From an uncultured Alphaproteobacteria bacterium (lineage in GTDB: Bacteria; Pseudomonadota; Alphaproteobacteria; Methylaequorales; Methylaequoraceae), in contig CABZAL010000011.1 of NCBI GenBank assembly GCA_902523675.1, positions 1-33,163 of the forward strand: a DNA stretch of 33,163 bases, written 5' to 3'. Shown here piece by piece: positions 1,889 through 33,163 of this stretch. The notes beneath the pieces were generated by a model that saw only the letters and a program-made list of their open reading frames with translations, was not told the DNA's origin and did not search any database. Every line of letters starts with the position of its first letter. Within the stretch, counting starts at the first letter, position 1. Both the position numbers and the translations under genes were made by a program.

Positions 1889-1902
1889 TCTTTTTTAAAT
1901 CA

Positions 1903-8042: not shown

Positions 8043-9116
8043 TTATAAAATCATATACTTTTTAATAATTTTTAAAATTCTTTCTGAAGTCTTACCATCC
8101 CATTTATCAATTTTAACTTTTTGTTTTTTTATTTTTTCTATTTTATTTATAATGGCTTTTAAATTTACCAATACGTTAGTACCTTTTGAAATCGTAATTG
8201 GTCTCTCTGTATTTTTTCTTAAAGTTAAACAAGGTATACCTAAATATGACGTTTCCTCTTGAATGCCACCTGAATCAGTAATTACAAAGCGGCAATTAAT
8301 AATCTGTAATATAAAATTACTGTAATTTAAAGGTGGGCAAACTTTTAGATTTCTGACTGTTTTTAATGAATCAAACAAACCAAATTCAATTAATTTTTTT
8401 TTTGTTCTTGGATGTAAAGGGAAAAGTATTCTATTGTTTTTTGTCCATTTTTTTATTTCAATTATTATTTCTTGTAAACTTTTTTTAATGTCAACATTTT
8501 CTGGTCTATGCAGAGTAATTACTCCATTAAAATTGTTATATATTGGTTTCAAATTTTTTTTTTTTTTTAAAAAATAGATTAGGCTGTCGATCATTATATT
8601 TCCAACAAAAAAAATATTTTTTTTTATATTTTCTTTTTTTAAATTTTTTTCCTCAATTACTGAAGGTGTAAATAAAAAATCAGAAATTGAATCTGTCAAT
8701 CTTCTATTAACCTCCTCTGGTTGATTATCATCATAACATCTTAGTCCTGCCTCTATGTGAGCTAATTTTACATTATTTTTTTTAGCTACAATAGAAGCTG
8801 CCAAAGTTGAGTTTACATCACCAAAAACCAAAACGAGATCTGGTCTAAAGCTTTCTATAAACTCATTGTATTTTTTTATAATCTTTGATATTTGTAAATT
8901 TGGTGAACCTGAACCAATTTTGAAATTAACATCTGGCATATTGATATCCAAAGTCTTTACCATTTCTTGAAAAAGATTTTTATTATAATGTTGACCCGTA
9001 TACACAAATTTATACTGAATATTTTTTTCTTTGGTCAAAATTCTTATAAGAGGAGCAATTTTTACAATATTAGGTCTAGCCCCAGCAACGATATGAATTT
9101 TTATATTTTTCCTCAT
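8043..9116 (-). CDS. wecB: UDP-N-acetylglucosamine 2-epimerase (non-hydrolysing)
   Basis: IHIVAGARPNIVKIAPLI, YTGQHYNKNLF, VFGDVNSTLAASIVAKK, HIEAGLRCYDDNQPEEVNRRLTD, TLHRPENVD, TDSGGIQEETSYLGIPCLTLRKNTERP. Confidence 0.92.
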   Translation of the reverse strand: MRKNIKIHIVAGARPNIVKIAPLIRILTKEKNIQYKFVYTGQHYNKNLFQEMVKTLDINMPDVNFKIGSGSPNLQISKIIKKYNEFIESFRPDLVLVFGDVNSTLAASIVAKKNNVKLAHIEAGLRCYDDNQPEEVNRRLTDSISDFLFTPSVIEEKNLKKENIKKNIFFVGNIMIDSLIYFLKKKKNLKPIYNNFNGVITLHRPENVDIKKSLQEIIIEIKKWTKNNRILFPLHPRTKKKLIEFGLFDSLKTVRNLKVCPPLNYSNFILQIINCRFVITDSGGIQEETSYLGIPCLTLRKNTERPITISKGTNVLVNLKAIINKIEKIKKQKVKIDKWDGKTSERILKIIKKYMIL

Positions 9117-11962: not shown

Positions 11963-13018
11963 TTATTTTGAAAATTTATTTTTTAATAAAAAATAAATTG
12001 AAATTAAGAAGTTTATTAACCCCTTTGGTTTAAATACGATCATTTTAAAAAAGTAAATAAAATGTAAATTTCTAAATAGATGAACCAATGTTTCATTAAA
12101 TGGTTTATTATTAAAGTGAACTTGATCAATTGAATAGCCCATAGCTTTTTTAAGATACATATCGTTATTGGTTACTTTAGATAACCTCAAAAAGGTTCTA
12201 TGAATGTTTTGTCTTTGTGGATTTTCTTGTAACTTATTTTCTATTTGGTAAAGTTTTTTTTTATTTATATTCAAACTAAAAAAATTATTTTCTAAGGGAT
12301 CATTAATATTTGATTTAATTGACTCAAGATCATTTTTATTAGAAAATAATATAGTATTTGATTCAAAAGATCTTCTTCTAGGAAATAAATTGTTGATTGT
12401 TTTAAAACTTTCACATCTTTCCAAAACACCCAAACTTATATATTTTTTATTTTTCAAATATTTTAGTAATACTCTTGATTCTCCAGAGTATTCCGTTCTG
12501 TCATAAAAGACGATGTCTTGTATAATTACTATTTTTTTTATTCTTGGCAATAATGAACTGATATACCATTTTGCAAACCAATCTTCATGACATGAATCAA
12601 TTAAAACCATATCAGGATCAGGAAATTCTAAGGTGGTTTTTGTAGCGTCACCAATTATAATTTGATGTTTATTGTATGAGTAATTACGGATATTATTTTT
12701 TATAAAACTAACAGTTTCTTTTCCAAACTTTTTTTCTTCTATTTCGAAAGAATATAGAATACCTTTTTTATTTTTTTTTAATGCAGATGTTATATATATA
12801 CTTGAATAACCACAATCTGGAGAAATCTCAAAAAATATTTTTGGTTTAATCTCTCTTATCAGGCAGTACATAATCTCACCATCAAAATCTGAAAAGGTTG
12901 CTCTAAACTTTTTAAATTTAGGAAAATCATTTCTAATTTGCTCTGTAAGATTAACTAATTCATATGAATATTTCTTATATATTTTACTTAAAAAATCTTT
13001 ACTTATTTTTTTTTTCAT
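11963..13018 (-). CDS. Class I SAM-dependent methyltransferase (Methyltransf_24-like)
   Basis: FFEISPDCGYSSIYITSALKKN, GDATKTTLEFPDPDMVLIDSCHEDWFAKWYISSLLPRIK. Confidence 0.65.
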   Translation of the reverse strand: MKKKISKDFLSKIYKKYSYELVNLTEQIRNDFPKFKKFRATFSDFDGEIMYCLIREIKPKIFFEISPDCGYSSIYITSALKKNKKGILYSFEIEEKKFGKETVSFIKNNIRNYSYNKHQIIIGDATKTTLEFPDPDMVLIDSCHEDWFAKWYISSLLPRIKKIVIIQDIVFYDRTEYSGESRVLLKYLKNKKYISLGVLERCESFKTINNLFPRRRSFESNTILFSNKNDLESIKSNINDPLENNFFSLNINKKKLYQIENKLQENPQRQNIHRTFLRLSKVTNNDMYLKKAMGYSIDQVHFNNKPFNETLVHLFRNLHFIYFFKMIVFKPKGLINFLISIYFLLKNKFSK

Positions 13019-13715
13019 TTTTATCTTTTAAATATTTATAAAATAAGGAACCAATCTCAATATCATCTTTAGTATCAATATCAACTGAAGAAAAATTATC
13101 CATCTGAAAGGGTATAGTCTTATCGTTAAAAATTTTTTTATCAATAATTTTTCTTTTTGTAATGTAAATTGCCGCTCCATTTCTGGCATAAAAAATATTT
13201 TTTTTTTGTCTTGAATAAATTTTATTTTTATCAATTTCGATTAAGAATTTATTTTTGATTTTCATCAATGACATTGGATTGAAATTATGTGGGAGCTCTA
13301 CGCAAGAAACTAATGAATCAGCTTTTTTGTTTTTCAGAAACTTTTTTAAGGCAGCATCTATATGCTCAGAATTTCTCAAAGGTGATGTAGGTTGAAGTGT
13401 AACTATTACATCTGGATAATATTTTTTTTTTTCTAAATTTTTAATCTCATATTTCAGAACACTCAAAGTTGTTGCCTTATCAGTAGAATACTTTTTTGGA
13501 CGTAAATTAATTTTATTTACATTATATTTTTCAGCAATATCTCTTATTTTCTTTGAATCGGTGGAAACAATTAACTTGTCAATCAGTTTTGAATTTTGGG
13601 CAGCTTTGATTGTCCAATAAATTAGAGGTTTGCCACAAAAATTTACTATATTTTTGTTCTTTATTCCCTTTGATCCTCCTCTAGCAGGTATAATGGCTAA
13701 AATTTTTGTCATCAA
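12999..13715 (-). CDS. neuA: Acylneuraminate/nonulosonate cytidylyltransferase (CMP-NulO synthetase)
   Basis: ILAIIPARGGSKGIKNKN signature, TLQPTSPLRNSEHID, SVDIDTKDDIEIG. Confidence 0.93.
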   Translation of the reverse strand: MMTKILAIIPARGGSKGIKNKNIVNFCGKPLIYWTIKAAQNSKLIDKLIVSTDSKKIRDIAEKYNVNKINLRPKKYSTDKATTLSVLKYEIKNLEKKKYYPDVIVTLQPTSPLRNSEHIDAALKKFLKNKKADSLVSCVELPHNFNPMSLMKIKNKFLIEIDKNKIYSRQKKNIFYARNGAAIYITKRKIIDKKIFNDKTIPFQMDNFSSVDIDTKDDIEIGSLFYKYLKDKNEKKNK

Positions 13716-14866
13716 TAAGTAATTTGTTTTTGTATTTTTATTGATGATACATTTTTTAAAACGCTAATAATTTTTTGACTAGCGGTTCCATCTCCGTACA
13801 ACTTACCTTCTTTATATTTACCATTTTTTATTTGAAATTTAATTGCATTTATTATCTTTTTTTTTTCAAAAGGAACATTTATGACATTACATCCTCTTTC
13901 TCTAGAATTTTGTCTTGAGCCTATATTAACGCATGGAACACCTAAATAATTACCTTCTCTGATTCCACTAGACGAATTACCAACTATACATAAACATTTA
14001 TCTAGGAGATTTATGTAAAGATCTGTGGGAAGGTTTTTATAAAAATGAGCTTTCTTCAGTAATTTATTTTCTCGATAAACTCGGAATAGTTTTGCTATTT
14101 TCGATGAACCCGCGTCAGCATTGGGCCAAAGAATAATTGTTGGAATATCTAAAGTATTTACACAATCTAAAATTTGACGAGTCTGAACATCAATTTTTTC
14201 AAATTCAGTTGTTACTGGATGATAACTCAAAATGATAAATGGCTTATTTATATCAAACTTAATTCCAACACCTTGAGAAAGAATGTTTTTGTTATAAATT
14301 CTTTTTTTTGATAATACTTCCTTTACATAATCAATTCTTGGACATCCAACATAAAAAATATTATCTTTATTTTCACCTAATTTTCGAATTCTCTCAGCAG
14401 CCTCTTTAGTGGCAGGAAAGTGTATATGAGAAAATTTTGTAATTGCATGTCTAATTGATTCATCAATTGTGCCAGTAACTTCCCCTCCCATTGTGTGTGC
14501 AATTGGAATATTCATATATGATGCGGCAAGGACAACGGCCATTACTTCAAATCTGTCACCAACAGCAAAAACTAAATCAGGTTTTAGTCTTGAAAAAACG
14601 GATGATAACTCAATAAGACATAAACCCGTTGATTTTGCCATTGTTAAGGGAGTTTCTCCTTCGATTAAATTAAAAATTTTTTCGTCTATTGAAAACCCGT
14701 CATTCTGAATGAGGTTAGAGACGTCACCATATCTTTGTAGCACTGATGAGGTTGAAAGGACAAGTTGGAATGAAAACTTTCTATCGGACTTTACTGCAGT
14801 CATAACAGATTTTATTGAACTATAATTAGCTCTTGAGCCAATTACAAAGCAAATTTTTTTCAGCAT
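13712..14866 (-). CDS. neuC: UDP-N-acetylglucosamine 2-epimerase (hydrolysing), NeuC/LegG type
   Basis: ICFVIGSRANYSSIKSVM, VFAVGDRFEVMAVVLAA, IAHTMGGEVTGTIDESIRHAITKFSHIHF, VGNSSSGIREGNYLGVPCVNIGSRQ; 4-bp overlap with neuA. Confidence 0.9.
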   Translation of the reverse strand: MLKKICFVIGSRANYSSIKSVMTAVKSDRKFSFQLVLSTSSVLQRYGDVSNLIQNDGFSIDEKIFNLIEGETPLTMAKSTGLCLIELSSVFSRLKPDLVFAVGDRFEVMAVVLAASYMNIPIAHTMGGEVTGTIDESIRHAITKFSHIHFPATKEAAERIRKLGENKDNIFYVGCPRIDYVKEVLSKKRIYNKNILSQGVGIKFDINKPFIILSYHPVTTEFEKIDVQTRQILDCVNTLDIPTIILWPNADAGSSKIAKLFRVYRENKLLKKAHFYKNLPTDLYINLLDKCLCIVGNSSSGIREGNYLGVPCVNIGSRQNSRERGCNVINVPFEKKKIINAIKFQIKNGKYKEGKLYGDGTASQKIISVLKNVSSIKIQKQITY

Positions 14867-15843
14867 AAATCCTTTTTTATTAATTTATGATCTTTATGGA
14901 TACTATTTTTTAATTTTTTTCCAATTATTTTTTTGTAATGCATAGCAGATATACCATCGCCAGGTTTTTTAAATGACATATCTTCGTCTCTAATAACTTC
15001 ATTTTTTTTCATACCCTTATTTATTACAATACTTTTTTCAAATACTCTTTTCATATCTCTATATTTTTTTAGATTATTTTTATCAACAGGATTCTTATTC
15101 ATTTTCCATATTGATTTAATACCCTTAACATAATTTTTAAATTCCAATAATTCCATTGCAAAAGGTGCATCAGACCCATACATTTTTCGGGAAAATGTAA
15201 TATGCTTTTCTATTACTGATGCACCTAAAGCAGCAGCAGCAAATCCTGCTTCACATCCTAAAAAATGATCAGAAAAACCAACAGGGATTTTATATTTGTT
15301 TTTCATTTCTAGTAAAATGTTTAATCCAACGCTTTCCTCTGGGCATGGGTAAATTGATGAACATTGCATTATTACGGTTTTTTTTTTGTCTAAAATTTTT
15401 AATGCTTGATCAATTTCATTCCAAGAACTCATTCCGGTTGAAAGAAAAACTTTTTTTCCCGTTTTTTTGATAAGCTCAAGCATTTTATGATTAGTTACCT
15501 CCCCAGATGCAATTTTGAAATAATTAACATTAACTTTTTTTAAAATTTCAACAGCTTTTTCTGAGAATGGTGAAACCATAAATTCCATTCCATATTTTTC
15601 TGTCATTTTTTTTAAAACAACAAGTTGTTCTAATGAAAAGTTTGTTCTTTTAAAATATTCATACCTATTTTCATCTTTAAAATATTTAGGTCCAGGTGCA
15701 TTACTCAGCATTTCAAATTCGGGCAAGTGAAGTTGAAACTTTACTATATCTACACCACAATTAAATGATTCTACAATAAGTTTTTTAGCATTTCCAAAAG
15801 AACCGTCATGGGAGGATCCAATTTCTGCTATTATTTTGTTCAT
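14860..15843 (-). CDS. neuB: N-acetylneuraminate (nonulosonate) synthase with C-terminal SAF domain
   Basis: IIAEIGSSHDGSFGNAKKLI, VKFQLH, YFKIASGEVTN, QCSSIYPCPEESVGL, VGFSDHFLGCEAGFAAAALGASVIEKHITF; C-terminal KSIVINKGMKKNEVIRDEDMSFKKPGDGI SAF-like. Confidence 0.93.
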   Translation of the reverse strand: MNKIIAEIGSSHDGSFGNAKKLIVESFNCGVDIVKFQLHLPEFEMLSNAPGPKYFKDENRYEYFKRTNFSLEQLVVLKKMTEKYGMEFMVSPFSEKAVEILKKVNVNYFKIASGEVTNHKMLELIKKTGKKVFLSTGMSSWNEIDQALKILDKKKTVIMQCSSIYPCPEESVGLNILLEMKNKYKIPVGFSDHFLGCEAGFAAAALGASVIEKHITFSRKMYGSDAPFAMELLEFKNYVKGIKSIWKMNKNPVDKNNLKKYRDMKRVFEKSIVINKGMKKNEVIRDEDMSFKKPGDGISAMHYKKIIGKKLKNSIHKDHKLIKKDLC

Positions 15844-17282: not shown

Positions 17283-17819
17283 TTATTCGAGTATATTTTT
17301 AAAAAGAGATGTTATTATTTTTTTTTCATAACTTAATATAAATTTCAAATTTTTTTGGTCTTTATTACTTAAATTTAATACATCAACTGAAGCAAGATTA
17401 TCGCATAATTTTAATAGCGAAGACAAATACTGAAAATTTTTTTTTTTTTCCCAAGCAAAAATTAATAAATCTGCAAAAAAAATATACAACTGAATTTCCG
17501 CTAGTCCAGTTCTCTTTATTGCCTTAAATTCTTTATCATACTTTTTAAATAATCTTCCATGAACCTCAAATTTTTTTACAAAATAATTTAACACTCTAAA
17601 ATTGCTTTTTGATTTAATTATTTTAAAAAAAAATAATAAATCAATTTTATCATTGATATTTATATTCCAATCAACTTTTTCTGGTTTACTTTCAATTTTT
17701 TTTATGAAGTTTTCTCTATTTCTTTTCCATTGATAAAATAACTGGTCGGAATACTGTGAATATTCATAATTTATTTTTTCAACAAAAAAATCTCTAGATT
17801 TATATTTGTAATTGTCCAT
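17283..17819 (-). CDS. Protein of unknown function (178 aa)
   Basis: Intact ORF overlapping the upstream APS-kinase-like gene by 20 bp in the same operon; no recognisable motif. Confidence 0.7.
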   Translation of the reverse strand: MDNYKYKSRDFFVEKINYEYSQYSDQLFYQWKRNRENFIKKIESKPEKVDWNININDKIDLLFFFKIIKSKSNFRVLNYFVKKFEVHGRLFKKYDKEFKAIKRTGLAEIQLYIFFADLLIFAWEKKKNFQYLSSLLKLCDNLASVDVLNLSNKDQKNLKFILSYEKKIITSLFKNILE

Positions 17820-18303
17820 TTTTTTTAAGATATTTAATAATTATATTTAGTGCTTCAAACGGATCATCTAGAAACTTTTCTGAAATAATAATATCAGGAT
17901 TTTCCGGTCTATTGAATGGGATGTCAATACCAACAATATTCTTTTGTAATTTATAAACATTCTGCTTTCTTTTTATTGCAAGTTCTAGGGGAATATCTAA
18001 AAAAATTTCAGTATAATCTTTTTTAAAAGTTTTTTTATTTTTTTTTAGCCATTTTGGAAAGTTTGATAATACAGAGACAATGATATGACAATTTTGCTTA
18101 TGTAAAAGTTTTACGAGTTTAAAAATTCTTTCGGCATTTTTTTCTCTAGATTCTATTGCATATCCTAAGTTATCAGACCAAACATTTCGCAATTCGTCTC
18201 CATCAAGGAGTACAACCTTATTTTTTTTATCTAGCAGGTATTTTAGTTTCTTTGCAATAGTTGTTTTTCCACTACCAGAAATTCCTAGAAACCATATTAT
18301 CAT
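17800..18303 (-). CDS. Adenylylsulfate-kinase-like protein (CysC family; could be a different nucleotide kinase)
   Basis: IIWFLGISGSGKTTIAKKL P-loop, VVLLDGDELRNVWSDNLGYAIESREKNAERI, GIDIPFNRPENPDIII. Confidence 0.85.
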   Translation of the reverse strand: MIIWFLGISGSGKTTIAKKLKYLLDKKNKVVLLDGDELRNVWSDNLGYAIESREKNAERIFKLVKLLHKQNCHIIVSVLSNFPKWLKKNKKTFKKDYTEIFLDIPLELAIKRKQNVYKLQKNIVGIDIPFNRPENPDIIISEKFLDDPFEALNIIIKYLKKNGQLQI

Positions 18304-21821: not shown

Positions 21822-23195
21822 TTAAATTTGTTTAAGAATAATTTTTGCTATTTCTAACTTATATTGACTATTTATAAAAAAAGATTCTGGAGTTGAAATC
21901 TCAAAATGTGTTAATTGCGGGCCAACAATTAGACTTTTTTCTAACAAACTATTCTTAAATGCTATGCATGAATTGGTATTTTTATAGACCTTCTCTTTAT
22001 CTAGAAAGCCATCTTGTGACAACAAAATTTTCTCAAGCCCAAATTTCCCTTTTTTATAAAACTCTGTATCTCTTTCAATTTCGACAGCAATTGACGTATC
22101 CATAGAGTGTATTTCCAAAGAAAATGCGGATTCTTCAAGTGATTGATAAGTGAAGAAAGGTGATTGTATATATTTAATTATAGTAAGATCATTTAAAGAG
22201 CTTTTAATTTTTTCGTTTACAAGTTTACACGTTTCAACAAGGCTCTCCCCTGGATACGTTAGCTTGGTATCTCTAAAAATATGTCTAACCTTTCTTTTAT
22301 CTAAGTTATTTACGAATTTTTCAACTTTTTCTGAATCAGAAACAACAATCACCTTATTGATGATTTTACTTGAAAGACATGTATTAATTGAAATTTCTAA
22401 AAGGTTTTTTTCACCAATTTTTATTTGCCACAAATCATTCATAAAATCAAAGTATTTTCTAACTGGAATAATTATGTTAATTTTTTTGTTTTCTTTTTTT
22501 ATTTTTATTAGAGCATTGTCCTTTTTGATTTTATGCCTTGCTACTCTTATTCTATCGCTTAGTCCATCATTACCTGTTAGGTTCTTATTATGTCTTCTAT
22601 AGTAAAAAAGAGGAAGATTAATATTTTCAATAAAATGTTTTGTTTTCATCTTTAACCATATATCTAAACCATCTTGTGCTTTAACATCTGTTCTGTACCC
22701 ACCTACATTTTTTAAAAAATTTTTTCTAATCATTAAACATGCTCCATTGGGGGGATAGTCAAAAGCATTAAATTCTTTATGAAGCAATGAAGTTCTTTTA
22801 GTTCTAAATATTTTTCCCTCTTGATTAATTAAATGAAAATCAGAAAAAACCATTCCTAACCCTGGGTTTGAAACAAATTTATTATGAAAAATAAGCAGAA
22901 TATTCGGATCAAAATAATCATCAGCATCAAGTCTAATAATATAATTTCCTCTAGAAATTTTTATAACTTCATTACAAATTTTCGCTAATCCATATCTATC
23001 GAAACTTTGAACTCTGACATTTTTAATAGATTTATATTTATGTATTATCTCCATAGAGGAATCACTTGAACCATCATCAATAATTATAAGCTCCCAATTT
23101 TTAAAAGTTTGCCGAAGGACACTATTTATTGCTTCTTCAAGATAATCTGAGTAGTTATAATTTGTTATAAAAACAGTTACTTCAATATTATTCAT
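21822..23195 (-). CDS. Fusion: GT2 glycosyltransferase (residues about 1-235) plus degenerate NeuA-like cytidylyltransferase domain (about 238-457)
   Basis: GT2: VTVFITNYNYSDYLEEAINSVLRQTFKNWELIIIDDGSSD, RLDADDYFD. C-terminal: INIIIPVRKYFDFMNDLWQIKIGEKNLLEISINTCLSSKIINKVIVVSDSEKVEKF aligns without gaps to the N-terminus of the NeuA encoded at 12999-13715. Confidence 0.82.
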   Translation of the reverse strand: MNNIEVTVFITNYNYSDYLEEAINSVLRQTFKNWELIIIDDGSSDSSMEIIHKYKSIKNVRVQSFDRYGLAKICNEVIKISRGNYIIRLDADDYFDPNILLIFHNKFVSNPGLGMVFSDFHLINQEGKIFRTKRTSLLHKEFNAFDYPPNGACLMIRKNFLKNVGGYRTDVKAQDGLDIWLKMKTKHFIENINLPLFYYRRHNKNLTGNDGLSDRIRVARHKIKKDNALIKIKKENKKINIIIPVRKYFDFMNDLWQIKIGEKNLLEISINTCLSSKIINKVIVVSDSEKVEKFVNNLDKRKVRHIFRDTKLTYPGESLVETCKLVNEKIKSSLNDLTIIKYIQSPFFTYQSLEESAFSLEIHSMDTSIAVEIERDTEFYKKGKFGLEKILLSQDGFLDKEKVYKNTNSCIAFKNSLLEKSLIVGPQLTHFEISTPESFFINSQYKLEIAKIILKQI

Positions 23196-23197
23196 TA

Positions 23198-24088
23198 TTA
23201 AAAACCATAAATGTACTCATCCATTAACGAATTGCTTAAGGACTTTCCTAAATTGTTACGATTAGGTTGGAATAATTTTACAATTTTATTCAGTTTAATT
23301 GCAAACATACACAATACTGAAGTAATACCCCAAATTTCTTCAGATGTTGCAAAAAAATATTCCAAACTATCAACAGTAACTTCAAAATTTTTTACATTAT
23401 TTTCTTCTAAAAAACTTTTTAATTGAAATATTTCTTGTTTAGGATGAGGTCTAAAAATAATTTTATAATTTTTATAAGCATATTCTCTGAGTTTTAGGGC
23501 ATATGAAATACTCTCTTTCCATGTATATCCAATATTTTTAGTTTCGGGGTCTAAAATAAAATAGATGGTTTTTTTTGTTTTTTCTTGAAATTTTTTTTTT
23601 ACTTTTTTTTTAAAAATTTCAAAAAAAGGATTTCCAAAAACATATACTCTTTTTTTTAACGCTATTGAATTGGTGGAACATAGAACTATTTTTTTTGCAA
23701 ATTTATCAGAAACAAAAATTTTTTTTGGATAAAAGTTTTGCTTTTCAAATTCATTCAAGATTGTGCTTATTTCATTCCAAGAGTCACAGAAAAAATAAGT
23801 ATCATACTTTTTCAAAATTTTTATATTTTTTCTCATTTTTTTTATATCAGTTTGTTGGGTCAAAAAGATACAATCATTTTTTCTAAGGTCTATATTACTA
23901 AAAGAAATATCTTTGTTATTATTAATTTTGCTAGCCCATCCTTCAAAAATACAAAAAGTTTTACTTCCAAGCAATGGAATAACTGGTTTCAGAAAATTAT
24001 ATCCTCCAGGATCAGAAAAAAAGACAAAAAATCTAGTATAACTTTTCTCTAAATTTTTAATTTTTATTTTCCACTTCATAGGATTCAA
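23198..24088 (-). CDS. Putative GT-B-like glycosyltransferase / surface-sugar protein
   Basis: FFVFFSDPGGYNFLKPVIPLL, KKIFVSDKFAKKIV, VYVFGNPFFE, YKIIFRPHPKQE; general GT-B layout only. Confidence 0.45.
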   Translation of the reverse strand: MNPMKWKIKIKNLEKSYTRFFVFFSDPGGYNFLKPVIPLLGSKTFCIFEGWASKINNNKDISFSNIDLRKNDCIFLTQQTDIKKMRKNIKILKKYDTYFFCDSWNEISTILNEFEKQNFYPKKIFVSDKFAKKIVLCSTNSIALKKRVYVFGNPFFEIFKKKVKKKFQEKTKKTIYFILDPETKNIGYTWKESISYALKLREYAYKNYKIIFRPHPKQEIFQLKSFLEENNVKNFEVTVDSLEYFFATSEEIWGITSVLCMFAIKLNKIVKLFQPNRNNLGKSLSNSLMDEYIYGF

Positions 24089-24995
24089 TCAATTTTAAAA
24101 CTTTTTCAACTTCTATAATATTTTTTATATTTCCAATTTTCTTTTGTTTAAAAACATCTATAGAATAATCAATTAAATTATTTATATGAGATTTATGATT
24201 AATTTTTAAAACTTTTGGTTTAGAAAAAAAAATCTCTTTTTTTTCATTTTTTACATTACTTATGTAACATGTTTCATTACCACTGATTAAATATTTTTTT
24301 TTATCTGTGAAAATCTCAATTTCAAAATGTGTAAAATATCTATGGTCTAGAGAAACTAAAAATACTTGTGAACATTTTTCATATTTTAGGAAAACGGTTT
24401 GAGTATTATCATTCCTAGAAAAATCATTTTTTTTACATAAAGGATTAATATAAATCAGTTTTCCTAAAAAAAAATTAAATAAATCAATTGCATGATAGCC
24501 ATTATTTCTCAAACCCTTGCCATACTTAATAGTGAAACTAATGATTTTTTGGTTTATTAAATCTTTTTTTATTCTATGGTAAAAATCAATAAATCTTCTG
24601 GAAAAATTAACTATTATTTTTTTTTGTTTTTTTTTTATTAACTTTAAAATCTCTTGGGACTTTTCAAATGATTCTGTGAGTGGTTTTTCCGCAACAATTA
24701 ATGAGGGTGAAAGCTCAGAAATCTTCTTTAATACTGAAAAATGACTTTCAGTTGACGATACAACATATGCAATATCAATTTTTTTTTTTTCTAGAGGATT
24801 AAGATTTTTGAATATTGCATTTCCGGTTTTTAATAATACTGTTGTAGGGTTGGGTTCTATTAAAGCCAACAAATCTATTATTTTTTTTTTTTTTAAAAAA
24901 TAGTAATAACTAAATTTACTTGTTTTTTCTAAGTTACCTCCAAAGCCAAATCTTCCACACCCAACTAGAATGGCAGTAATTTTTTTACTTTTCAT
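24057..24995 (-). CDS. Gfo/Idh/MocA family oxidoreductase
   Basis: ITAILVGCGRFGFGGNLEK, DIAYVVSSTESHFSVLKKI, LIVAEKPLTESFEKSQEIL, VNFSRRFIDFYHRIK, RNNGYHAIDLFNFFLG. Confidence 0.85.
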   Translation of the reverse strand: MKSKKITAILVGCGRFGFGGNLEKTSKFSYYYFLKKKKIIDLLALIEPNPTTVLLKTGNAIFKNLNPLEKKKIDIAYVVSSTESHFSVLKKISELSPSLIVAEKPLTESFEKSQEILKLIKKKQKKIIVNFSRRFIDFYHRIKKDLINQKIISFTIKYGKGLRNNGYHAIDLFNFFLGKLIYINPLCKKNDFSRNDNTQTVFLKYEKCSQVFLVSLDHRYFTHFEIEIFTDKKKYLISGNETCYISNVKNEKKEIFFSKPKVLKINHKSHINNLIDYSIDVFKQKKIGNIKNIIEVEKVLKLIESYEVENKN

Positions 24996-25722
24996 TTGGT
25001 TTCTTTTGTTTAACGTTTATATTTTCAAAAAATATTTTTTTCTTTTTTTTATATAAATCAAGTATATCGATTGCTCTAAAGTATGGTTTTATATGTTTTA
25101 AACTTTCAAAAACATTACAAATCACAAAATAGTCATCTGGCTCATCAAGCGTTAATCTGATATTTTTATTAAAAAATAATTTATTTAATTTTATTTGTCT
25201 AACATCAAAAGTTTTTTTTTTCTTTATAAAAAATCCACCGTGACTTCTCATAATCTTATCTTTGCATATATAATCAATCTTTTTTAACGCTTTAAAAGAG
25301 AAACATCTAACATTTAGTCCAATTATAACAGAATCATCTAAAGACGTATCAACATAATCGCATTTATATCTTTTTATGCATTTTATTACTTTGTCGATTA
25401 TTTCAGGGTCTATTAATGGATTATCACCGGTAAGTTGTACTATATAATCAGGGGGATTAGATTTTTGGGAATCAATGATTCTTTTTATAATATCGTTTTC
25501 GCTTCCCATAAAACAATTTATGTCATTATATTTACAATATTTGCTAATGATTTGGTTTTGCATTCTTGTTGAAGTAAGTACTTGAATTTCGTCAATTTCT
25601 GATGAGTAATTAAGTCTTTCAATTAATCTTCCTAACATTGGCATCCCACCCAATGGTAACATCACCTTACCTGGAAGTCTTGAAGACCCCATTCTAGCTT
25701 CAATGGTAGCAACAACCCTCAT
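24985..25722 (-). CDS. SpsF-like cytidylyltransferase
   Basis: VVATIEARMGSSRLPGKVMLPLGGMPMLGRLIERL, VQLTGDNPLIDPEIID, RLTLDEPDDYFVI. Confidence 0.9.
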   Translation of the reverse strand: MRVVATIEARMGSSRLPGKVMLPLGGMPMLGRLIERLNYSSEIDEIQVLTSTRMQNQIISKYCKYNDINCFMGSENDIIKRIIDSQKSNPPDYIVQLTGDNPLIDPEIIDKVIKCIKRYKCDYVDTSLDDSVIIGLNVRCFSFKALKKIDYICKDKIMRSHGGFFIKKKKTFDVRQIKLNKLFFNKNIRLTLDEPDDYFVICNVFESLKHIKPYFRAIDILDLYKKKKKIFFENINVKQKKPNEK

Positions 25723-26969
25723 CTTTTACTTAAATTACCTTGTAATAACAAATCGTAAGATTTGTCAAGTATCTTTGGAGCATTAAATTTAATATAGTTT
25801 ATGTTTCTATTAGATGTATTTGGAGTTTTGTGACCATTTCTTTTTCTTTTACTTTCATTTGTAAGTTTAATTTTTTTTCCATCAAAATAAATGAGATCTG
25901 ACTTAAATTTTTTTAAATATTCATAGAATTTATTTTTGTTTAATAACAGCCATTTAAAAAAAAAATCGTCGTTAAGTTTTATTTTTTTTTCATAAAAATT
26001 AACTAGTTGAATTCCTTGTTCTCTAGAAATTCTTTTTAATCTAATTTCTCTACACACATGATCTGTAATTTTTGAGTAACCATTTTTAAAAAATTTTATT
26101 GTATCATGGAGTTTATTATAAATTTGACAATCAATATCATTAAAATAGTCATACGTATTGTTTACGCGATTAATATAATACTTATTTTTTTTATATAGAA
26201 GCCTGTGCTGATTAAATGAGTCCCAAAAATGATAATTATTCAAATAAACACCTCTAATACCTTTTTTTTGAATTTCATCATCTGATGGATAATAGAGCAT
26301 TTTTATCTCGTCTTTGTACTTTCCTAATTCATAGCTTTTGAGGTCTTCTGGCTCTAAACCTAATAAGTCATGTTCTTTTCTATAACGTCTAGACATTTCT
26401 ACGTTATCAAAATGCGAAAACATTCCGACTTGATCAATACCTTGATGACAGCCCCAAATAATAAGGGGAATGTTTTCTCTGCAAGCAACTTGAACTGGAA
26501 GAACTGTTGATCCACAAATATATGGCCAATAAATACTACCAATTTTTTTTAATGAAGTTTTTATTAAAAATTTATAGAAATCTTGGTTTATAGTATACAT
26601 AAAAATATCTGTGCCATAAATTGATCTAATTAACTCGAGATTTTTAATACCTAGTTTAGAGTTAAAATGTCTATTAAAAACTACAAGCAAAGGGTTTAAC
26701 TTATAAGTATTGACGACTAAATCTAAAATAAAAAAAGAGTCTTTTCCTCCTGAGATAGGTACAACACAATCATAAAAATTCTTTTTTTTATAATTCAATA
26801 AAAGTTTTGAGAATGCTTTTTTTTTTAAATTCCAATTTATCTTATATTTTTCCTTATGTACCCTACAACCACTACAGACTCCATTCTTATCAAATAACAA
26901 ACCTAAGGGATGTGATGAAGGATATAGACATTCCTTGCAATAATATGTAATTTTATCTGTTTTAAGCAT
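25719..26969 (-). CDS. N-acetyl sugar amidotransferase (PseA/WbpG-like), copy A
   Basis: YYCKECLYPSSHPLGLLFDKNGVCSGCRVHKEKYKINW Cys motif; PP-loop DCVVPISGGKDSFF; EIRLKRISREQGIQLV. Confidence 0.9.
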   Translation of the reverse strand: MLKTDKITYYCKECLYPSSHPLGLLFDKNGVCSGCRVHKEKYKINWNLKKKAFSKLLLNYKKKNFYDCVVPISGGKDSFFILDLVVNTYKLNPLLVVFNRHFNSKLGIKNLELIRSIYGTDIFMYTINQDFYKFLIKTSLKKIGSIYWPYICGSTVLPVQVACRENIPLIIWGCHQGIDQVGMFSHFDNVEMSRRYRKEHDLLGLEPEDLKSYELGKYKDEIKMLYYPSDDEIQKKGIRGVYLNNYHFWDSFNQHRLLYKKNKYYINRVNNTYDYFNDIDCQIYNKLHDTIKFFKNGYSKITDHVCREIRLKRISREQGIQLVNFYEKKIKLNDDFFFKWLLLNKNKFYEYLKKFKSDLIYFDGKKIKLTNESKRKRNGHKTPNTSNRNINYIKFNAPKILDKSYDLLLQGNLSKR

Positions 26970-28128
26970 CAGTACTAATTCTTTTTAAAATTTGATTTAT
27001 ATCAATTTCATCAAGATCATTATAACTCTGCCAGGCTGGACTTTTTAACTTCCACTTTCCTTTGTTTTTGTTCCACATTTCTCCATAAAAAATTTCCTTT
27101 TTCTTATGAAACAAATCATATGATATATGAGACCAATCACAAAATCTTTGAATATATTTTTTTGCGCACCTCCCATCGAGTGCCTTTACTAATGCAGCTC
27201 CCTCCCTTCGTGTAATCCTTTTATCTCTGATATCATATGATACAAATTCTGTGGTATGACCAAAACCAAATTTTATATGTTTTAGCATTGAGTTAACAAT
27301 AGTAAAGTCAGTATCAAGAGAATTATGTTTATATAAATTTCCAATATTTTTATAACTATCTTGATGAAATTTCATACCCTTTTGACGAGAAAAAATTGCA
27401 TTTCTCCAACCAGACCAATTGAAAAAGTAACCCATAAAAATTGATCTACCTCCCCACTTTTTAATTTCCTTATCTGATGGAAACGTATATAGAGCTAAAT
27501 CTTCCTTTTTTATTTCTCTGTCTTCCCAAATTTTAATACTAGCACCTGCTAATGTGTGATTATCTTTAATGCCTATTGCATCCCATCCAGCTCTATTCTT
27601 GTTTAAATCACCTGCCTCCAGTGCAGGGTTTTCGCCAAAAAAAACTAAAGGAATTTTGTATGAAATGGCGGCTCTCAAAGGAATTGTAAAAAGAGAAAAT
27701 TCAGAAAATTTTGCAACGTTTCCAAATTTTAGAAATGATTTTTTTGCAAGCTTTTTAGCAACATTAGGATTTGGTTGGATAGAAATTAACGAGAAGTTAT
27801 GTTTAATTAAATTTTCTAGGTTAAATTTTCCAAGTTCTGTTCCATCTGAACAGGTATAATTTACTAAAAGTGGATTTAATCCTAATTGTCTTAATTTAAA
27901 AGCCTGCCAATAACTATCTTTTCCCCCACTTACACCTAAAACACAATCATGACCACGAAAGCTATATTTTTTTGCCCAATTGATAATCTCTTTGAATTTT
28001 TTTTGCCTAGATTTCCAATCAATTTTTTTCTTTTTTTTATGCCAATTACAAGCCGAGCATACACCGAATTTATCGAAAACTATCCCAGGCCGTGAGCTTG
28101 GCATAAGACATTTACTACAGTGTTTCAT
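26962..28128 (-). CDS. N-acetyl sugar amidotransferase (PseA/WbpG-like), copy B
   Basis: KHCSKCLMPSSRPGIVFDKFGVCSACNWHKKKKKIDW; PP-loop DCVLGVSGGKDSYW; DIRDKRITRREGAALVKALDG. Confidence 0.92.
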   Translation of the reverse strand: MKHCSKCLMPSSRPGIVFDKFGVCSACNWHKKKKKIDWKSRQKKFKEIINWAKKYSFRGHDCVLGVSGGKDSYWQAFKLRQLGLNPLLVNYTCSDGTELGKFNLENLIKHNFSLISIQPNPNVAKKLAKKSFLKFGNVAKFSEFSLFTIPLRAAISYKIPLVFFGENPALEAGDLNKNRAGWDAIGIKDNHTLAGASIKIWEDREIKKEDLALYTFPSDKEIKKWGGRSIFMGYFFNWSGWRNAIFSRQKGMKFHQDSYKNIGNLYKHNSLDTDFTIVNSMLKHIKFGFGHTTEFVSYDIRDKRITRREGAALVKALDGRCAKKYIQRFCDWSHISYDLFHKKKEIFYGEMWNKNKGKWKLKSPAWQSYNDLDEIDINQILKRISTDA

Positions 28129-28838
28129 ATTTTTTTTAAAGTGATATCTGTAATTTTTTTGTAGTTTGCCAAAAGTTTTAGCTCATCTGGAGTCATACTA
28201 CAATTGTGATCGGGACCATAAGACTTTTTATCAATTGTAAAATGTTTTTCTATTATTGAAGCACCTCTAGATAATGCTATCATTGATGCTTCCACGCCAA
28301 CTGTATGGTCACTAAATCCATTATATTTTTTAAAATCAATTGTATTAAAATTAATTTTTTTAATTGCTGTTGGATAATCTGATATACAAAAAAGATAAAA
28401 AATCTTTTTACACGGTTGAAAGTTCGGTAATTTTTCTTTTTTCCAGAATCCTAACGAAACTATTACTGGCTTATTTTCATTAATAACATTTGAAATCAAA
28501 TTTGTATCTTCAATTGATCTAGAGGCAATTTTAAATCTTTTTACATTAATCTTTTTCAACCAATTAAATCTTTCAAGATCAAAAACAGATGCCATAAACT
28601 CTATTTTTACTTTGTCACATGTTTCTTTAATTTCATATAATTGCTTGAGTGATAATTCACATTTACAATTATAATCAAACCATTTATTGTTTTTTCTTTT
28701 GAATAATTTTTTTGCATTAAAAAGTTGAAATTTGGCAACATCACCACCATTTTCTTTCGCGGCATAAATTAATTCCTTGGCTTTAGATATATACCCGTCG
28801 TGATTTTGTCCAATTTCTACTATAATTTCACTTTTCAT
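28125..28838 (-). CDS. NeuB-family nonulosonate synthase-like protein, short form without SAF domain
   Basis: IIVEIGQNHDGYISKAKELI, VAKFQLF, RFKIASRSIEDT, NGFSDHTVGVEASMIALSRGASIIEKHFTIDKKSYGPDHNCSMTPDEL; stops at 237 aa. Confidence 0.9.
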   Translation of the reverse strand: MKSEIIVEIGQNHDGYISKAKELIYAAKENGGDVAKFQLFNAKKLFKRKNNKWFDYNCKCELSLKQLYEIKETCDKVKIEFMASVFDLERFNWLKKINVKRFKIASRSIEDTNLISNVINENKPVIVSLGFWKKEKLPNFQPCKKIFYLFCISDYPTAIKKINFNTIDFKKYNGFSDHTVGVEASMIALSRGASIIEKHFTIDKKSYGPDHNCSMTPDELKLLANYKKITDITLKKI

Positions 28839-30676
28839 AATTTATTTATTTCTAACCATTTATTTAATATTATTAAAGAGAAAATAGTGTGACCATTAAG
28901 TTTCTTTTGGTCATTAAGTAATTTTTTAATCTCATTAAAAAAATTCTTATTAAGTATATTCATTTTATTTAATCTTGAGCTTTTTGAAGCAAGTTCTTCA
29001 ACAAGATGAAACCAATCTTTTTTTAACCATAAATCGATAGGAACATTAAATCCGTGCTTGGGTCTTTGAATAACTTCTTCTCCAACAAGGTTTTTAAAAG
29101 CTTTTTTTAAAAGGACTTTTAAGCTTGAATTTTTAATTAAATTTGAAAATTTTAAATTTGAGGAAAATGCTAAAATTTTTTTGGATACAAATGGAGCTCT
29201 TCCTTCAATTGATGAAGACATTGTGAATCTATCAAGTTTTGTCATCATTTCGTTAGTTAGATAAAAGTCTCTATCATTTTTAATAAAATCGATTTTTTTA
29301 ACCTTTTTTAGGTTATTGAAATATCTTAACGAAGAAGAACATAACTCATAAAAGTCACTACTAAATATTTTTTGTTTATCTAAATCTGATGCATAATAAT
29401 GATATGCCCAAGCTCTCTTGTTTGGAGGATAAATATTTATATCAGAAATTCTCTTTGATAATTGAATTGAAGTACTTTGCATAGACACATCAGAAAACTG
29501 ATTATTTTTTCCACTGTTATCACTCAGATAATTATACCAAGAGTAACCTCCAAAAAGTTCATCTGCCCCATCACCGGATAGAAGAACTTTAACACCTCTG
29601 TTCTTGGCTTCCTTTGATATACTCATTATACCTAAACCAGAGGAAACTGCATAAGGTTGTCCAGAAAATCGCACAAAATCTTCAAGAAGATTTAAATAAT
29701 TTTGGGAATTAGCTTTTACAGAAAAATGCTTAATTCCTTTTTTTTCTGAAAAACTTTTGGCTAAACTACTTTCATCTAAACTTGAATTGCTATATGGGTC
29801 AGATTTATTTTCGAAGCTTACAGAAAATGTTTCTAAATTTGTTATTGTTTCATTAGCTATTGCTGTAATAATTGAACTATCTAATCCACCACTTAAAAAA
29901 CAACCCAACTTCACATCTGAAATTAGTCTTAGGTTTACTGAATCTTCGACAAGTTTCTTTGTAAAATCAACTAAATCATTTTTTTCTAAGTTTAAATTAA
30001 TAGAGTTAGCATAATCTTTGTTGAGTATTTTTTCAGTTTTTACTTTTCCGTTTCTAAAAGTTATCATTGACCCAACTGGGACTGCTTTAACTTCTCTAAA
30101 AATTGTTGAAGGCTCTGGAATCCATAAAAAAGTTGGTAAATCAAATATTCCTTGATAATTCAAATTAAGAGTTAGGTTTTGAATTTTTCTGAAGCTACTT
30201 AGTTGGGAAGAAAATATGAAAGTATTATTTTTCGAGAAGTAGAAAAGAGGTTTTTCTCCAACTAAATCTCTGGCTATGATGATTTGTTTTTTTTGTTTAT
30301 CCCATACAGAAATTGCATACATCCCGTCAATTAAAGAAAAACTTTTTTTGCCGTAACACTCAAAAAGATTAGCTAAAACTTCACCATCACAATTTGAATT
30401 AAATGAATAACCTTTTTTAAGCAGTTTATTCTTTAAATTTTTAAAATTATATATTTCGCCATTATAAAAAATAATAAAATTTCCATTATTACTTATAAAT
30501 GGTTGTGACCCATTTTGAAGATCATTGATTGACAATCTAACCATACCAGCTAAATAGTTGCCGTCGGTAAAAATTTTCAAATCATCAGGTCCACGATGAT
30601 TAAAATCTTTTAATATTTTCTCTAAAACATTTTTATAAGTTTGTTTTTGTGAAAAAATACCGGCAATACCGCACAT
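28835..30676 (-). CDS. asnB: Asparagine synthase (glutamine-hydrolysing)-family amidotransferase, copy 2
   Basis: MCGIAGIFSQ, NHRGPDD, FYNGEIYNF; PP-loop CFLSGGLDSS; SGDGADELFGGYSWY. Confidence 0.92.
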   Translation of the reverse strand: MCGIAGIFSQKQTYKNVLEKILKDFNHRGPDDLKIFTDGNYLAGMVRLSINDLQNGSQPFISNNGNFIIFYNGEIYNFKNLKNKLLKKGYSFNSNCDGEVLANLFECYGKKSFSLIDGMYAISVWDKQKKQIIIARDLVGEKPLFYFSKNNTFIFSSQLSSFRKIQNLTLNLNYQGIFDLPTFLWIPEPSTIFREVKAVPVGSMITFRNGKVKTEKILNKDYANSINLNLEKNDLVDFTKKLVEDSVNLRLISDVKLGCFLSGGLDSSIITAIANETITNLETFSVSFENKSDPYSNSSLDESSLAKSFSEKKGIKHFSVKANSQNYLNLLEDFVRFSGQPYAVSSGLGIMSISKEAKNRGVKVLLSGDGADELFGGYSWYNYLSDNSGKNNQFSDVSMQSTSIQLSKRISDINIYPPNKRAWAYHYYASDLDKQKIFSSDFYELCSSSLRYFNNLKKVKKIDFIKNDRDFYLTNEMMTKLDRFTMSSSIEGRAPFVSKKILAFSSNLKFSNLIKNSSLKVLLKKAFKNLVGEEVIQRPKHGFNVPIDLWLKKDWFHLVEELASKSSRLNKMNILNKNFFNEIKKLLNDQKKLNGHTIFSLIILNKWLEINKL

Positions 30677-31899
30677 TATTTATTAATTGTTTGGTTAAAA
30701 ATATCTTTGATTTGCTTTGCCATTATTTTTATATCCCTTAGTTTGATATCCCAAGAAACAGGCTGAAACTGAATGATTTCATTATTATGAATTCTTTCCA
30801 CAACTTCGCAAGTCAAGTTTTCGTAATAACTTCTGTAAAATTTCATTTTATCGTTACATCCAAAATCAAGGTTTTCGTTAAAAATGCTTAGTCTATAAAT
30901 AGGTTTTACATAACCTTGAGTTATGAGGATTCCTTTTTTTTGAATTAATGAACAAAATTTGTGGAGGCTTTTTTTTGAAGAATTTTTTACTTTACAGCTC
31001 CACATAAAGTAAACATGTCGACAGTTTTTTCTAACTTTAGGAACAATCAAATTTTCAACATCTAATAACTCTTCGCTAAGATAAGAACCTATATCCTCTG
31101 TTCGTTTTGTAAGAAAATCTACCCTTTTCAATTGTTCATTAGCAATTGTTGCCGAAATCTCAGGTAATCGAAAATTAAATCCTAGTATATTAGAGTTATT
31201 TTTTAGATTTAACGAATCAACGACATTTTCACCGTGATTCCTGATAAGACTTAACCTTGAAGCTAATTCCTTATTAGATGTTATACAAACTCCGCCCTCA
31301 CCACAGTGAATATGTTTATGTATATTCAAACTAAATACTCCAATATCTCCGACAGTTCCACACAACTTGTTGTTTTCATGAGCTAGGATTGACTGAGAAT
31401 TATCCTCAATTAAATAAATCCCCTTCTTTTTACAAAAAACTTTCAACCTTTCAAGTTCAGCTGGATGTCCAAACTGGTTTACAACAATAATGGCTTTAGT
31501 TCTACTTGTTGTTTTTCTAATAACATCTTCATAGTCTATATTAAAAAAATCTTCTTCTATATCACAAAAGATTGGAACAGCTCCATAAAAAATAGGTGCT
31601 ATTGCTGAAATCGACATTGAAAATGGTGAAACTATTACTTCATCACCACTTTTTAGATCGATTGCTCCCATTGAGGCAATTAGGCACGATGTTGCTGAAT
31701 TCATTGATACACTGTATTCTGTGTTAAATTTTTTACTCCAATTCTCCTCAAATTTTCTTATTTGTTTTCCGCCAAAAAACTCTGGCCTATTACTCCCGTA
31801 AAAACCTGACAGGGGGCTATCAGATTTTAAAAATCTCTCCACCGCTAAAAGTTCTTTTGGGCTAATACTATTAAATTTTTTTATTTTTGAAAAAGTCAT
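30676..31899 (-). CDS. DegT/DnrJ/EryC1/StrS PLP-dependent sugar aminotransferase
   Basis: NSATSCLIASMGAIDLKSGDEVIVSPFSMSISAIAPIFYGAVPIFCDIE, LIEDNSQSILA, GVFSLNIHKHIHCGEGGVCIT (PLP-lysine motif), ISATIANEQL. Confidence 0.92.
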   Translation of the reverse strand: MTFSKIKKFNSISPKELLAVERFLKSDSPLSGFYGSNRPEFFGGKQIRKFEENWSKKFNTEYSVSMNSATSCLIASMGAIDLKSGDEVIVSPFSMSISAIAPIFYGAVPIFCDIEEDFFNIDYEDVIRKTTSRTKAIIVVNQFGHPAELERLKVFCKKKGIYLIEDNSQSILAHENNKLCGTVGDIGVFSLNIHKHIHCGEGGVCITSNKELASRLSLIRNHGENVVDSLNLKNNSNILGFNFRLPEISATIANEQLKRVDFLTKRTEDIGSYLSEELLDVENLIVPKVRKNCRHVYFMWSCKVKNSSKKSLHKFCSLIQKKGILITQGYVKPIYRLSIFNENLDFGCNDKMKFYRSYYENLTCEVVERIHNNEIIQFQPVSWDIKLRDIKIMAKQIKDIFNQTINK

Positions 31900-33163
31900 A
31901 GAAAATAAATTTTTTTAAAGTTTGATATAGGATATTTTTTTTTTAATTCATAAATATATATAAGAATTTTTATTCTTGATACAAAGAAAAATAAAGGGAA
32001 AGTAAAAAGGTAAAAAAGTTTGTCAATAAATCCTATATTTTCCGACTTTTTGATGAACCAAGAAATTCTTGGTATCTCGCCTAAAAAAGGAAAAATTAAA
32101 AAAATAAAGTCTATTTTTCTTGAATCATATAATTCGTAATTACTAATTTTTAACTCAGTATAGAAAAAATTTGTAAGAAATAATTTCTCAGTCCATGGCA
32201 ACAAATATTTCCATCTTTCCGTAACATGTTTATTTGGTGATGAATAATCTTGACTCTGCTTTTTTAATTCATTGGATAAGATTTTACTTTTATTTGGATT
32301 GTAGTTAGAGTTATAGGCGCCGGTACCATTCCATTCCTTTCCCATCATTTTTATTTTATAATTGCTTGAATCCCAGTCTTGACAAAAATTAATATTTATT
32401 TTTTTACAGAATTTTTTTATTGTCTCTAAAAAATTTAAATTCAAATCCTCATTTTTAATAAAAATCCATTTGTCGTTAGAATTTTCATATTTTTTTAACA
32501 ATGAATAGAAAGCAATATATTGGTAGAATATAAAAAAATTTGCTGGTGAATCAAAACTTTTATACTTTTTAAGTAAAAGATTAAAGAATTTTTGGAAGAA
32601 ACTTGATATTTTATAATCATAGTTATTAATCATCTGTGAAATTAATTGATGTCTAGTAGAGGCAAATTGAGCTCGAGGATCTCTTTGAATACTAATAATA
32701 TAAAAATCAATGAAATCTTTTTTAACTAAATCTAAAATACTAAGATCAAAAGAGTCAAAGAGTCTTTCTTCTCTTAGAGAAACAGAGTCAATACAAAGAA
32801 TATAATTTACTTTTTCTGTATTCTTATTTATGCAAACTGCATAAAAAAAATAAAGCTGTTTTATGGCATCTGATCTTGCAATTGTCTTACTATTTCTATT
32901 CGCATATTCAATAAAATTTCTAAATTTTTTAGATGGAAAATCTATACTAGTATCTCCACCTATTTTTTTTATAAAAGACCTAGATGAATCATTTAAATCA
33001 TTATAAATATATTTAAAATAAGAATTTTTTTCTAGATAATCATAGAATTTACTTATACTCACACTGGTTTTTTTTCCTAAAAATCTCGTCCAATTTGAAT
33101 ACACATAGTGAACTAAGGGACAAACAATGATGTTTTCGTGGTTATCGAACAAACATTGAAAAA
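31896..33163 (-). CDS. Sulfotransferase-like protein; 5' end truncated by window edge
   Basis: FYIISIQRDPRAQFASTRHQ resembles the sulfotransferase 3'-phosphate-binding RDPRxxxxS motif; C-terminal ERWKYLLPWTEK. The track start at 33152 is a TTG, and the frame stays open upstream (…FQCLFDNHE) to the window edge. Confidence 0.55.
   Translation of the reverse strand, partial: FQCLFDNHENIIVCPLVHYVYSNWTRFLGKKTSVSISKFYDYLEKNSYFKYIYNDLNDSSRSFIKKIGGDTSIDFPSKKFRNFIEYANRNSKTIARSDAIKQLYFFYAVCINKNTEKVNYILCIDSVSLREERLFDSFDLSILDLVKKDFIDFYIISIQRDPRAQFASTRHQLISQMINNYDYKISSFFQKFFNLLLKKYKSFDSPANFFIFYQYIAFYSLLKKYENSNDKWIFIKNEDLNLNFLETIKKFCKKININFCQDWDSSNYKIKMMGKEWNGTGAYNSNYNPNKSKILSNELKKQSQDYSSPNKHVTERWKYLLPWTEKLFLTNFFYTELKISNYELYDSRKIDFIFLIFPFLGEIPRISWFIKKSENIGFIDKLFYLFTFPLFFFVSRIKILIYIYELKKKYPISNFKKIYFL

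Follow-up and report, generated by a model that had tools for sequence, protein, structure and literature searches.

Several described pathways share enzyme families with the locus reported here. In Bacillus subtilis, legionaminic acid (Leg) is synthesized by the sps pathway, comprising SpsM, SpsC, SpsD, SpsG, SpsE, and SpsF (PMC7439481); in Campylobacter, the routes to pseudaminic acid (Pse) and Leg include PseA/PtmG-type amidotransferases. Pseudomonas aeruginosa O5 uses the WbpB/WbpE/WbpD/WbpG-HisH2-HisF2 set, and cluster B of Sphingomonas LM7 encodes an AsnB-like amidotransferase, a pyridoxal phosphate (PLP) aminotransferase, an acetyltransferase, an MviM dehydrogenase, WbuX, HisF2, and HisH; a colony-morphology screen yielded hits in every one of these genes (PMC11340318). 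The pathway to 8-amino-3,8-dideoxy-D-manno-octulosonic acid (Kdo8N) involves KdnA and KdnB. The subject of the present analysis is a gene block at positions 21,822 to 31,899 of a contig from an uncultured alphaproteobacterium of the Methylaequoraceae (CABZAL010000011.1). "The window" denotes the full 33,163 nucleotides analyzed, which are one whole contig (C11) of a genome of 1.1 Mb with 25.6% GC that is 74% complete.

The block combines several conserved modules into a mosaic and does not represent a single fixed pathway. These modules are DegT/Gfo/GTB, which may include SpsF; the pair WbuX1 and WbuX2; and, as in Neomarinimicrobiota, a short NeuB with AsnB and a glycosyltransferase-NeuA fusion (GT2-NeuA). 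Judged from the sequences, the block would be a surface-polysaccharide cassette for making and attaching a 2-keto-3-deoxy acid of the nonulosonate kind, activated by cytidine monophosphate (CMP) and carrying one or more acetamidino groups, by a variant pathway; we favor this reading tentatively, at a probability a little short of even. An original prediction had proposed a new amidino- or amide-modified acidic sugar made by a nonulosonate-like pathway. Amidino modification of the product is well supported and an acetamidino-bearing acidic sugar likely, while its nonulosonate identity, likely only, is a best guess. The genes are given below in the order in which they are transcribed, followed by a comparison set.

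31896..33152, minus strand: contig-end open reading frame (ORF), probably 5'-truncated, overlapping DegT by 4 bases; sulfotransferase-like as inferred from a motif only, with no match in Pfam and NCBIfam scans.
30676..31899, minus strand: DegT/PseC-like PLP aminotransferase (PF01041, 224 bits).
28835..30676, minus strand: AsnB-like glutamine-dependent amidotransferase (PF00733, 224 bits; TIGR01536 above cut-off), N-terminal Cys and PP-loop intact.
28125..28838, minus strand: short NeuB, a barrel-only synthase of 237 amino acids (aa) without linker and SAF domain (PF03102, 173.5 bits).
26962..28128, minus strand: WbuX1, N-acetyl-sugar amidotransferase (TIGR03573, 308 bits, cut-off 203) with PP-loop SGGKDS and tetracysteine motif.
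25719..26969, minus strand: WbuX2, second N-acetyl-sugar amidotransferase (TIGR03573, 269 bits, cut-off 203), PP-loop intact.
24985..25722, minus strand: SpsF/KdsB-like cytidylyltransferase (PF02348, 94.6 bits; PDB 6oew, 109 bits).
24057..24995, minus strand: Gfo/Idh/MocA oxidoreductase (PF01408, 44 bits) with EKP and HxxD motifs.
23198..24088, minus strand: GTB, a GT-B-fold protein and probable transferase with HP and S/T motifs (alignment of 12; model pLDDT 73).
21822..23195, minus strand: GT2 glycosyltransferase fused to a NeuA-like domain (PF00535, 91 bits), catalytic motifs of the NeuA part lost.
12999..15843, minus strand: canonical neuB-neuC-neuA set, its NeuB with a SAF domain.

The genes named in the original prediction are confirmed at their given positions with Pfam or NCBIfam family support, and the canonical cassette lies beside the block; the fusion in the last gene of the block had been overlooked. 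Gene content, operon-like packing, the conservation of modules, intact key motifs of the barrel, PP-loop, and PLP enzymes, and the distinctness of a SAF-less NeuB clade are directly observed. Neighbors from the contig-end ORF through GTB overlap by 1-32 bases, and GT2 starts 2 bases after GTB; such overlapping codirectional genes suggest one translationally coupled unit. An APS-kinase-like gene at 17800-18303, together with the sulfotransferase-like motif of the contig-end ORF, hints at sulfated sugars in the locus.

NeuB-type synthases serve as a marker for nonulosonate biosynthesis, and their SAF domain is regarded as the source of a required active-site residue. In the NeuB of Neisseria meningitidis (NmeNeuB) this is Arg314, the R314A variant being inactive, with Phe288 as another contact (PMC6795526). 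The short NeuB terminates at the end of the barrel and keeps the residues of the phosphoenolpyruvate (PEP) and metal site (Glu8, His13, Lys36, Gln38, Lys103, Ser106, His178, Glu197, His199, and Asp210). It scores far below the cut-offs of the synthase models, PseI and NeuB among them (184 versus 400 and 144 versus 340 bits), and lacks the barrel-plus-SAF architecture that defines NeuB/PseI/LegI. A truncated or frameshifted gene was considered and rejected, since its last 4 bases are shared with WbuX1 and equally long relatives occur in other genomes and on virus contigs. The best-matching known structure is 6ncs, a NeuB with a chain of 290 residues; the similarity is distant, and 6ncs differs in keeping the acidic active-site residue and in its longer C-terminus.

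In the tree, the protein falls into a clade of 23 short synthases (224-278 aa; support 100/99) from bacteria and virus contigs alike. The motif K-[ILV]-A-S-R is present in 19 of these 23; other NeuBs usually show a small residue there, followed by Asp/Glu. SAF presence was judged by protein lengths and Pfam, the C-terminal tails of the large alignment being unreliable. Other SAF-less NeuBs (270-294 aa) occur elsewhere in the family tree. Novelty thus seems to lie in the barrel-only clade, not in SAF loss by itself, and the short NeuB is apparently a member of a distinct, undescribed branch of sialic-acid synthases. Nothing pertinent on SAF-less or phage NeuBs was found in the open literature, which does not disprove that such work exists. 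The nearest cellular relative (57%) is encoded on a short contig of Neomarinimicrobiota (L063) in the order AsnB (47% to the AsnB of the block), short NeuB, GT2/NeuA (39%), SpsF; at a second locus (L176), the short NeuB is followed by two other genes and then by GT2/NeuA and SpsF. A search with the short NeuBs of the window, L063, and L176 yielded further members in two other Neomarinimicrobiota families and on IMG/VR contigs. Among 22 loci, whose rows are not independent, 16 have a cytidylyltransferase within three ORFs of the short NeuB.

SAF-less synthases of ~230 aa are found in the window, in Neomarinimicrobiota, in other proteobacteria, and on many virus contigs. It is possible, if doubtful, that they constitute a distinct class making a CMP-activated 2-ulosonic acid unlike neuraminic acid, Pse, or Leg, with genes moving between phages and host surface-polysaccharide loci. 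With a supported clade that is devoid of linker and SAF domain and has cytidylyltransferases nearby, in two cases also dehydratases and an amidotransferase, both the dispensability of the SAF cap and the identity of the acid become testable. In Neomarinimicrobiota families f192 and f197 (L329:9777-12235, L324, L325, and L327), GT2 and short NeuB are adjoined by a protein of 590-630 aa with a NeuA-like N-terminus and a C-terminus that reads as a 2-hydroxyacid dehydrogenase.

The C-terminal domain of the GT2 protein is homologous to CMP-sialate synthetases (hhalign 99.8%, E 1.3e-29; Foldseek hit 1eyr, TM 0.79 by target). Its GSK...KN and metal-binding Asp (DxD) motifs are replaced, which sets it apart from CMP-N-acetylneuraminate synthetases proper. 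The fusion is conserved also in Neomarinimicrobiota, in one Magnetococcales bin, and in two same-family genomes. For the GT2 domain itself, the best relative in sequence or fold among known structures is the Leptospira borgpetersenii glycosyltransferase 6p61, at a distant similarity.

In a sample of 385 genomes of the class, the DegT subfamily recurs at 37-45% identity in 13 genomes besides that of the window, with 43-45% reached in eight. DegT-SpsF-Gfo-GTB are consecutive at six loci (L145, L220, L221, L222, L223, and L225), three of which are extended at the end of this series by a GNAT gene, and a Gfo-DegT-GTB version is found in L226, L227, L229, L077 (SAR116), and L068 (Bacteroidetes). 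The DegT/Gfo/GTB module, usually with SpsF, extends over eight families within the class, and an order so constant over many families is hardly due to chance. In the window, AsnB-shortNeuB-WbuX1-WbuX2 sits between DegT and SpsF of this cassette; a NeuB lies next to or near the cassette in L221, L225, L227, and L068. Of the order DegT-AsnB-NeuB-PseA-PseA-SpsF-Gfo, whose conservation had been put forward as a check, sub-blocks are conserved; no relative searched was found to carry all seven genes in this arrangement. The conserved DegT-SpsF-Gfo-GTB(-GNAT) array looks like a second, hitherto undescribed route to an aminated CMP-sugar for which genomes can be searched. DegT is a PseC/LegC homolog, not an equivalog: its best NCBIfam model is TIGR03588 (PseC) at 179 bits versus a cut-off of 423, and LegC gives 153 versus 420 bits. 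GTB was considered as a PseG-like hydrolase and rejected, having no GxGHxxR motif and matching in Foldseek 2-epimerases, TagF, polysialyltransferase, and LpxB, that is, a generic GT-B fold. Near NeuB and Gfo-DegT-GTB, the SAR116 locus (L077:2074-3795) encodes a fusion of an apparent PseG/SpsG-like hydrolase (GFGHLSR motif) with a formyltransferase-like domain.

WbuX1 and WbuX2, 29% alike, both carry the PP-loop (SGGxDS) and tetracysteine motifs by which the TIGR03573 family is defined (PMC10607449) and, with scores above its cut-off, both belong to the N-acetyl-sugar amidotransferases (WbuX/WbpG/PseA). The pair occurs together with HisH and HisF in three other genomes (G022, G651, and G465), WbuX1 being 39-40% identical to its counterpart in G022, and WbuX2 52%, 46%, and 42% identical to those in G022, G651, and G465, respectively. 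HisH and HisF are absent from the window; at its end, contig C25 of the same genome carries an additional HisH and a gene of the HisF2 type, the latter scoring best with the WbuZ glycosyl-amidation family (179 bits, below the cut-off of 300). In many class relatives (L035, L036, L037, L039, L041, L043, L045, and L047), the gene immediately ahead of a WbuX1-type gene is AsnB-like; AsnB also adjoins NeuB in G030, G028, and the Nitrospirae locus L129. By this placement, AsnB is likely to be a pathway member, and it would probably act as ammonia source or amide former. Fused forms are seen in G030 (L148:1797-3827), where HisF2 and WbuX make up one protein of ~680 aa directly 3' of HisH, and in G021 (L146:3442-5481), where a similar protein of 679 aa has WbuX at its C-terminus. 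A second AsnB-like gene of the window (2827-4734) adjoins a gene (4734-6851) whose product joins a zinc-type alcohol dehydrogenase to a Gfo/Idh oxidoreductase.

The WbpB/E/D/G logic combines Gfo/Idh, DegT, acetyltransferase, WbuX, and HisH/HisF. The gene set follows this logic, and a comparable one is present in LM7 cluster B (PMC11340318). DegT, Gfo/Idh, GNAT, WbuX, HisH/HisF, and AsnB might act in the synthesis of a diamino sugar of uronic or hexose type, as in 2-acetamido-3-acetamidino-2,3-dideoxymannuronic acid (ManNAc3NAmA), with an AsnB-made amide, short NeuB and SpsF being incidental. We regard this as unlikely: in a phmmer search against the PDB, DegT reaches 73 bits with WbpE versus 129-144 bits with others; Gfo scores 25 bits versus a cut-off of 450 with NF040723 (UDP-GlcNAc 3-dehydrogenase) and falls far outside that family; and SpsF, an ulosonate-type cytidylyltransferase, is conserved in the cassette.

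Pfam scans of all larger genes confirmed that the window contains neither a dehydratase-type short-chain dehydrogenase/reductase nor an acetyltransferase. As had been suggested, some such steps are encoded elsewhere in the genome: C38 carries a 609-aa PglF/CapD-type 4,6-dehydratase (PseB model, 179 versus a cut-off of 408 bits), of a type that appears family-wide, and C25 a PseH-like GNAT (53 versus 93 bits). With HisH2/HisF2 also on C25, the gaps are at least partly filled from outside the window. Both genes, and PseC as the closest NCBIfam model of DegT, would suit an ordinary Pse/Leg pathway with an acetamidino group whose genes are scattered over the genome and whose synthase is merely SAF-less. 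Such a pathway is quite improbable, given that DegT and short NeuB are far under the PseC, PseI, and NeuB cut-offs, that no PseG/LegG partner is seen in the block (the rest of the genome was not searched for it), and that the family-wide dehydratase may serve other sugars. Joining C25 to the end of the window was tried and rejected for want of shared end sequence. On its minus strand, C25 (L157) also has genes at 1379-6370 that resemble an O-methyl-phosphoramidate capsule set, including a nucleotidyltransferase, a GATase similar to gamma-glutamyl-CDP-amidate hydrolase (NF045546, 128 bits, below cut-off), and a PEP-utilizing protein read as glutamine kinase-like (904 bits, above the PRK05849 cut-off).

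Two virus contigs would offer the best argument for SAF-less synthases in a Pse/Leg-like route with WbuX. The order on L259 is hexapeptide acetyltransferase, unknown, NeuA, 4,6-dehydratase (PF02719, Polysacc_synt_2, E 5e-82), SAF-less NeuB, DegT; that on L261 is full NeuB, NeuA, small ORF, PAPS-reductase-like, WbuX1 (42% to WbuX1 of the window), 4,6-dehydratase, SAF-less NeuB, DegT. Both DegTs are 35% identical to that of the window, and both SAF-less synthases form a separate pair inside the clade and are devoid of the ASR motif. A phage major head protein is present on L252 and L259. LicD and PEP phosphomutase are encoded next to short NeuB and a small NeuA-like gene on L252 (9448-12995), along with two ORFs similar to phosphonopyruvate decarboxylase; this phosphonate-type set shares its contig with the phage head gene.

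For the favored acetamidino nonulosonate, substrates and order of steps are proposed from the enzyme families. A precursor would be aminated by DegT, either together with Gfo/Idh or following a 4,6-dehydratase from elsewhere in the genome, and the amino group would be acetylated by GNAT. WbuX1 and WbuX2 would convert N-acetyl to N-acetimidoyl groups with ammonia from HisH2/HisF2 and perhaps AsnB. Short NeuB would condense the aldose with PEP, SpsF would use CTP to activate the acid, and GTB and/or the GT2-NeuA fusion would transfer it. Several observations weigh against this scenario. The acidic position of K-I-x-S-x-D/E, which is D/E in 117 of 129 alignment rows, is Ser in the short NeuB, whose chain also ends before the regions holding Phe288 and Arg314 of NmeNeuB (PMC6795526). 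L261 holds a full-length NeuB as well. HisH2/HisF2 and GNAT lie on C25, which has no end overlap with the window, so that linkage is unproven. As originally stated, the window has neither a recognizable PseG-like hydrolase nor a second hydrolyzing epimerase, the second Epimerase_2 gene (8043-9116) looking non-hydrolyzing; PseG was searched for in the window only. Finally, L221 has a different SpsF for its NeuB, and two SpsF are likewise present in L220 and L224, so that SpsF, Gfo, and DegT of the cassette do not necessarily use what the short NeuB makes. To this extent the predicted pathway is qualified, its independent NeuB-type synthase accompanied by an aminotransferase, a cytidylyltransferase, and amidotransferases being upheld.

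The separate SpsF in L221 also speaks for two interleaved pathways, in which DegT-SpsF-Gfo-GTB(-GNAT) would convert a compound such as Kdo or the canonical neuBCA product, by oxidation and transamination as in Kdo8N, to an aminated ulosonate activated by CMP, and AsnB-shortNeuB-GT2/NeuA would make another acid. The relatives examined have the cassette but no short NeuB, L063 (a short contig) and L176 have short NeuB-GT2/NeuA-SpsF but no cassette, and the Kdo8N transaminase 5k8b is the fourth-best phmmer match of DegT in the PDB. Set against these are the overlap of both gene sets in one operon-like run in the window and the direct pairing of SAF-less NeuB with DegT in L259 and L261; we consider the two-pathway arrangement possible, at clearly less than even probability.

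Summarizing, no match to a fully characterized pathway with known product was found. The parallel drawn to SpsC/SpsE/SpsF of B. subtilis is fair at the family level, as DegT, a NeuB-type synthase, and an SpsF-like cytidylyltransferase are shared, and sister cassettes, not the block itself, add GNAT; SpsM and SpsG are missing from the block, the synthase is SAF-less, and Gfo/Idh, AsnB, and two WbuX are extra. With the Campylobacter Pse/Leg routes it has in common a PseC-like DegT, a NeuB-type synthase, and the acetamidino-forming WbuX family, but it has no dedicated PseB/LegB or PseG/LegG, and DegT and synthase are far under the equivalog cut-offs. P. aeruginosa O5 and LM7 cluster B share Gfo/Idh, DegT, acetyltransferase, WbuX, and HisH/HisF, whereas a NeuB/SpsF pair is not reported there and Gfo and DegT of the window are not close to GnnA and WbpE. 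The Kdo8N pathway, with a KdnB-related DegT-type transaminase, follows the same logic of oxidizing and then aminating an ulosonate; the cassette differs in that its oxidoreductase is of the Gfo/Idh type, not a Kdn dehydrogenase, and in having its own cytidylyltransferase and GT-B protein.

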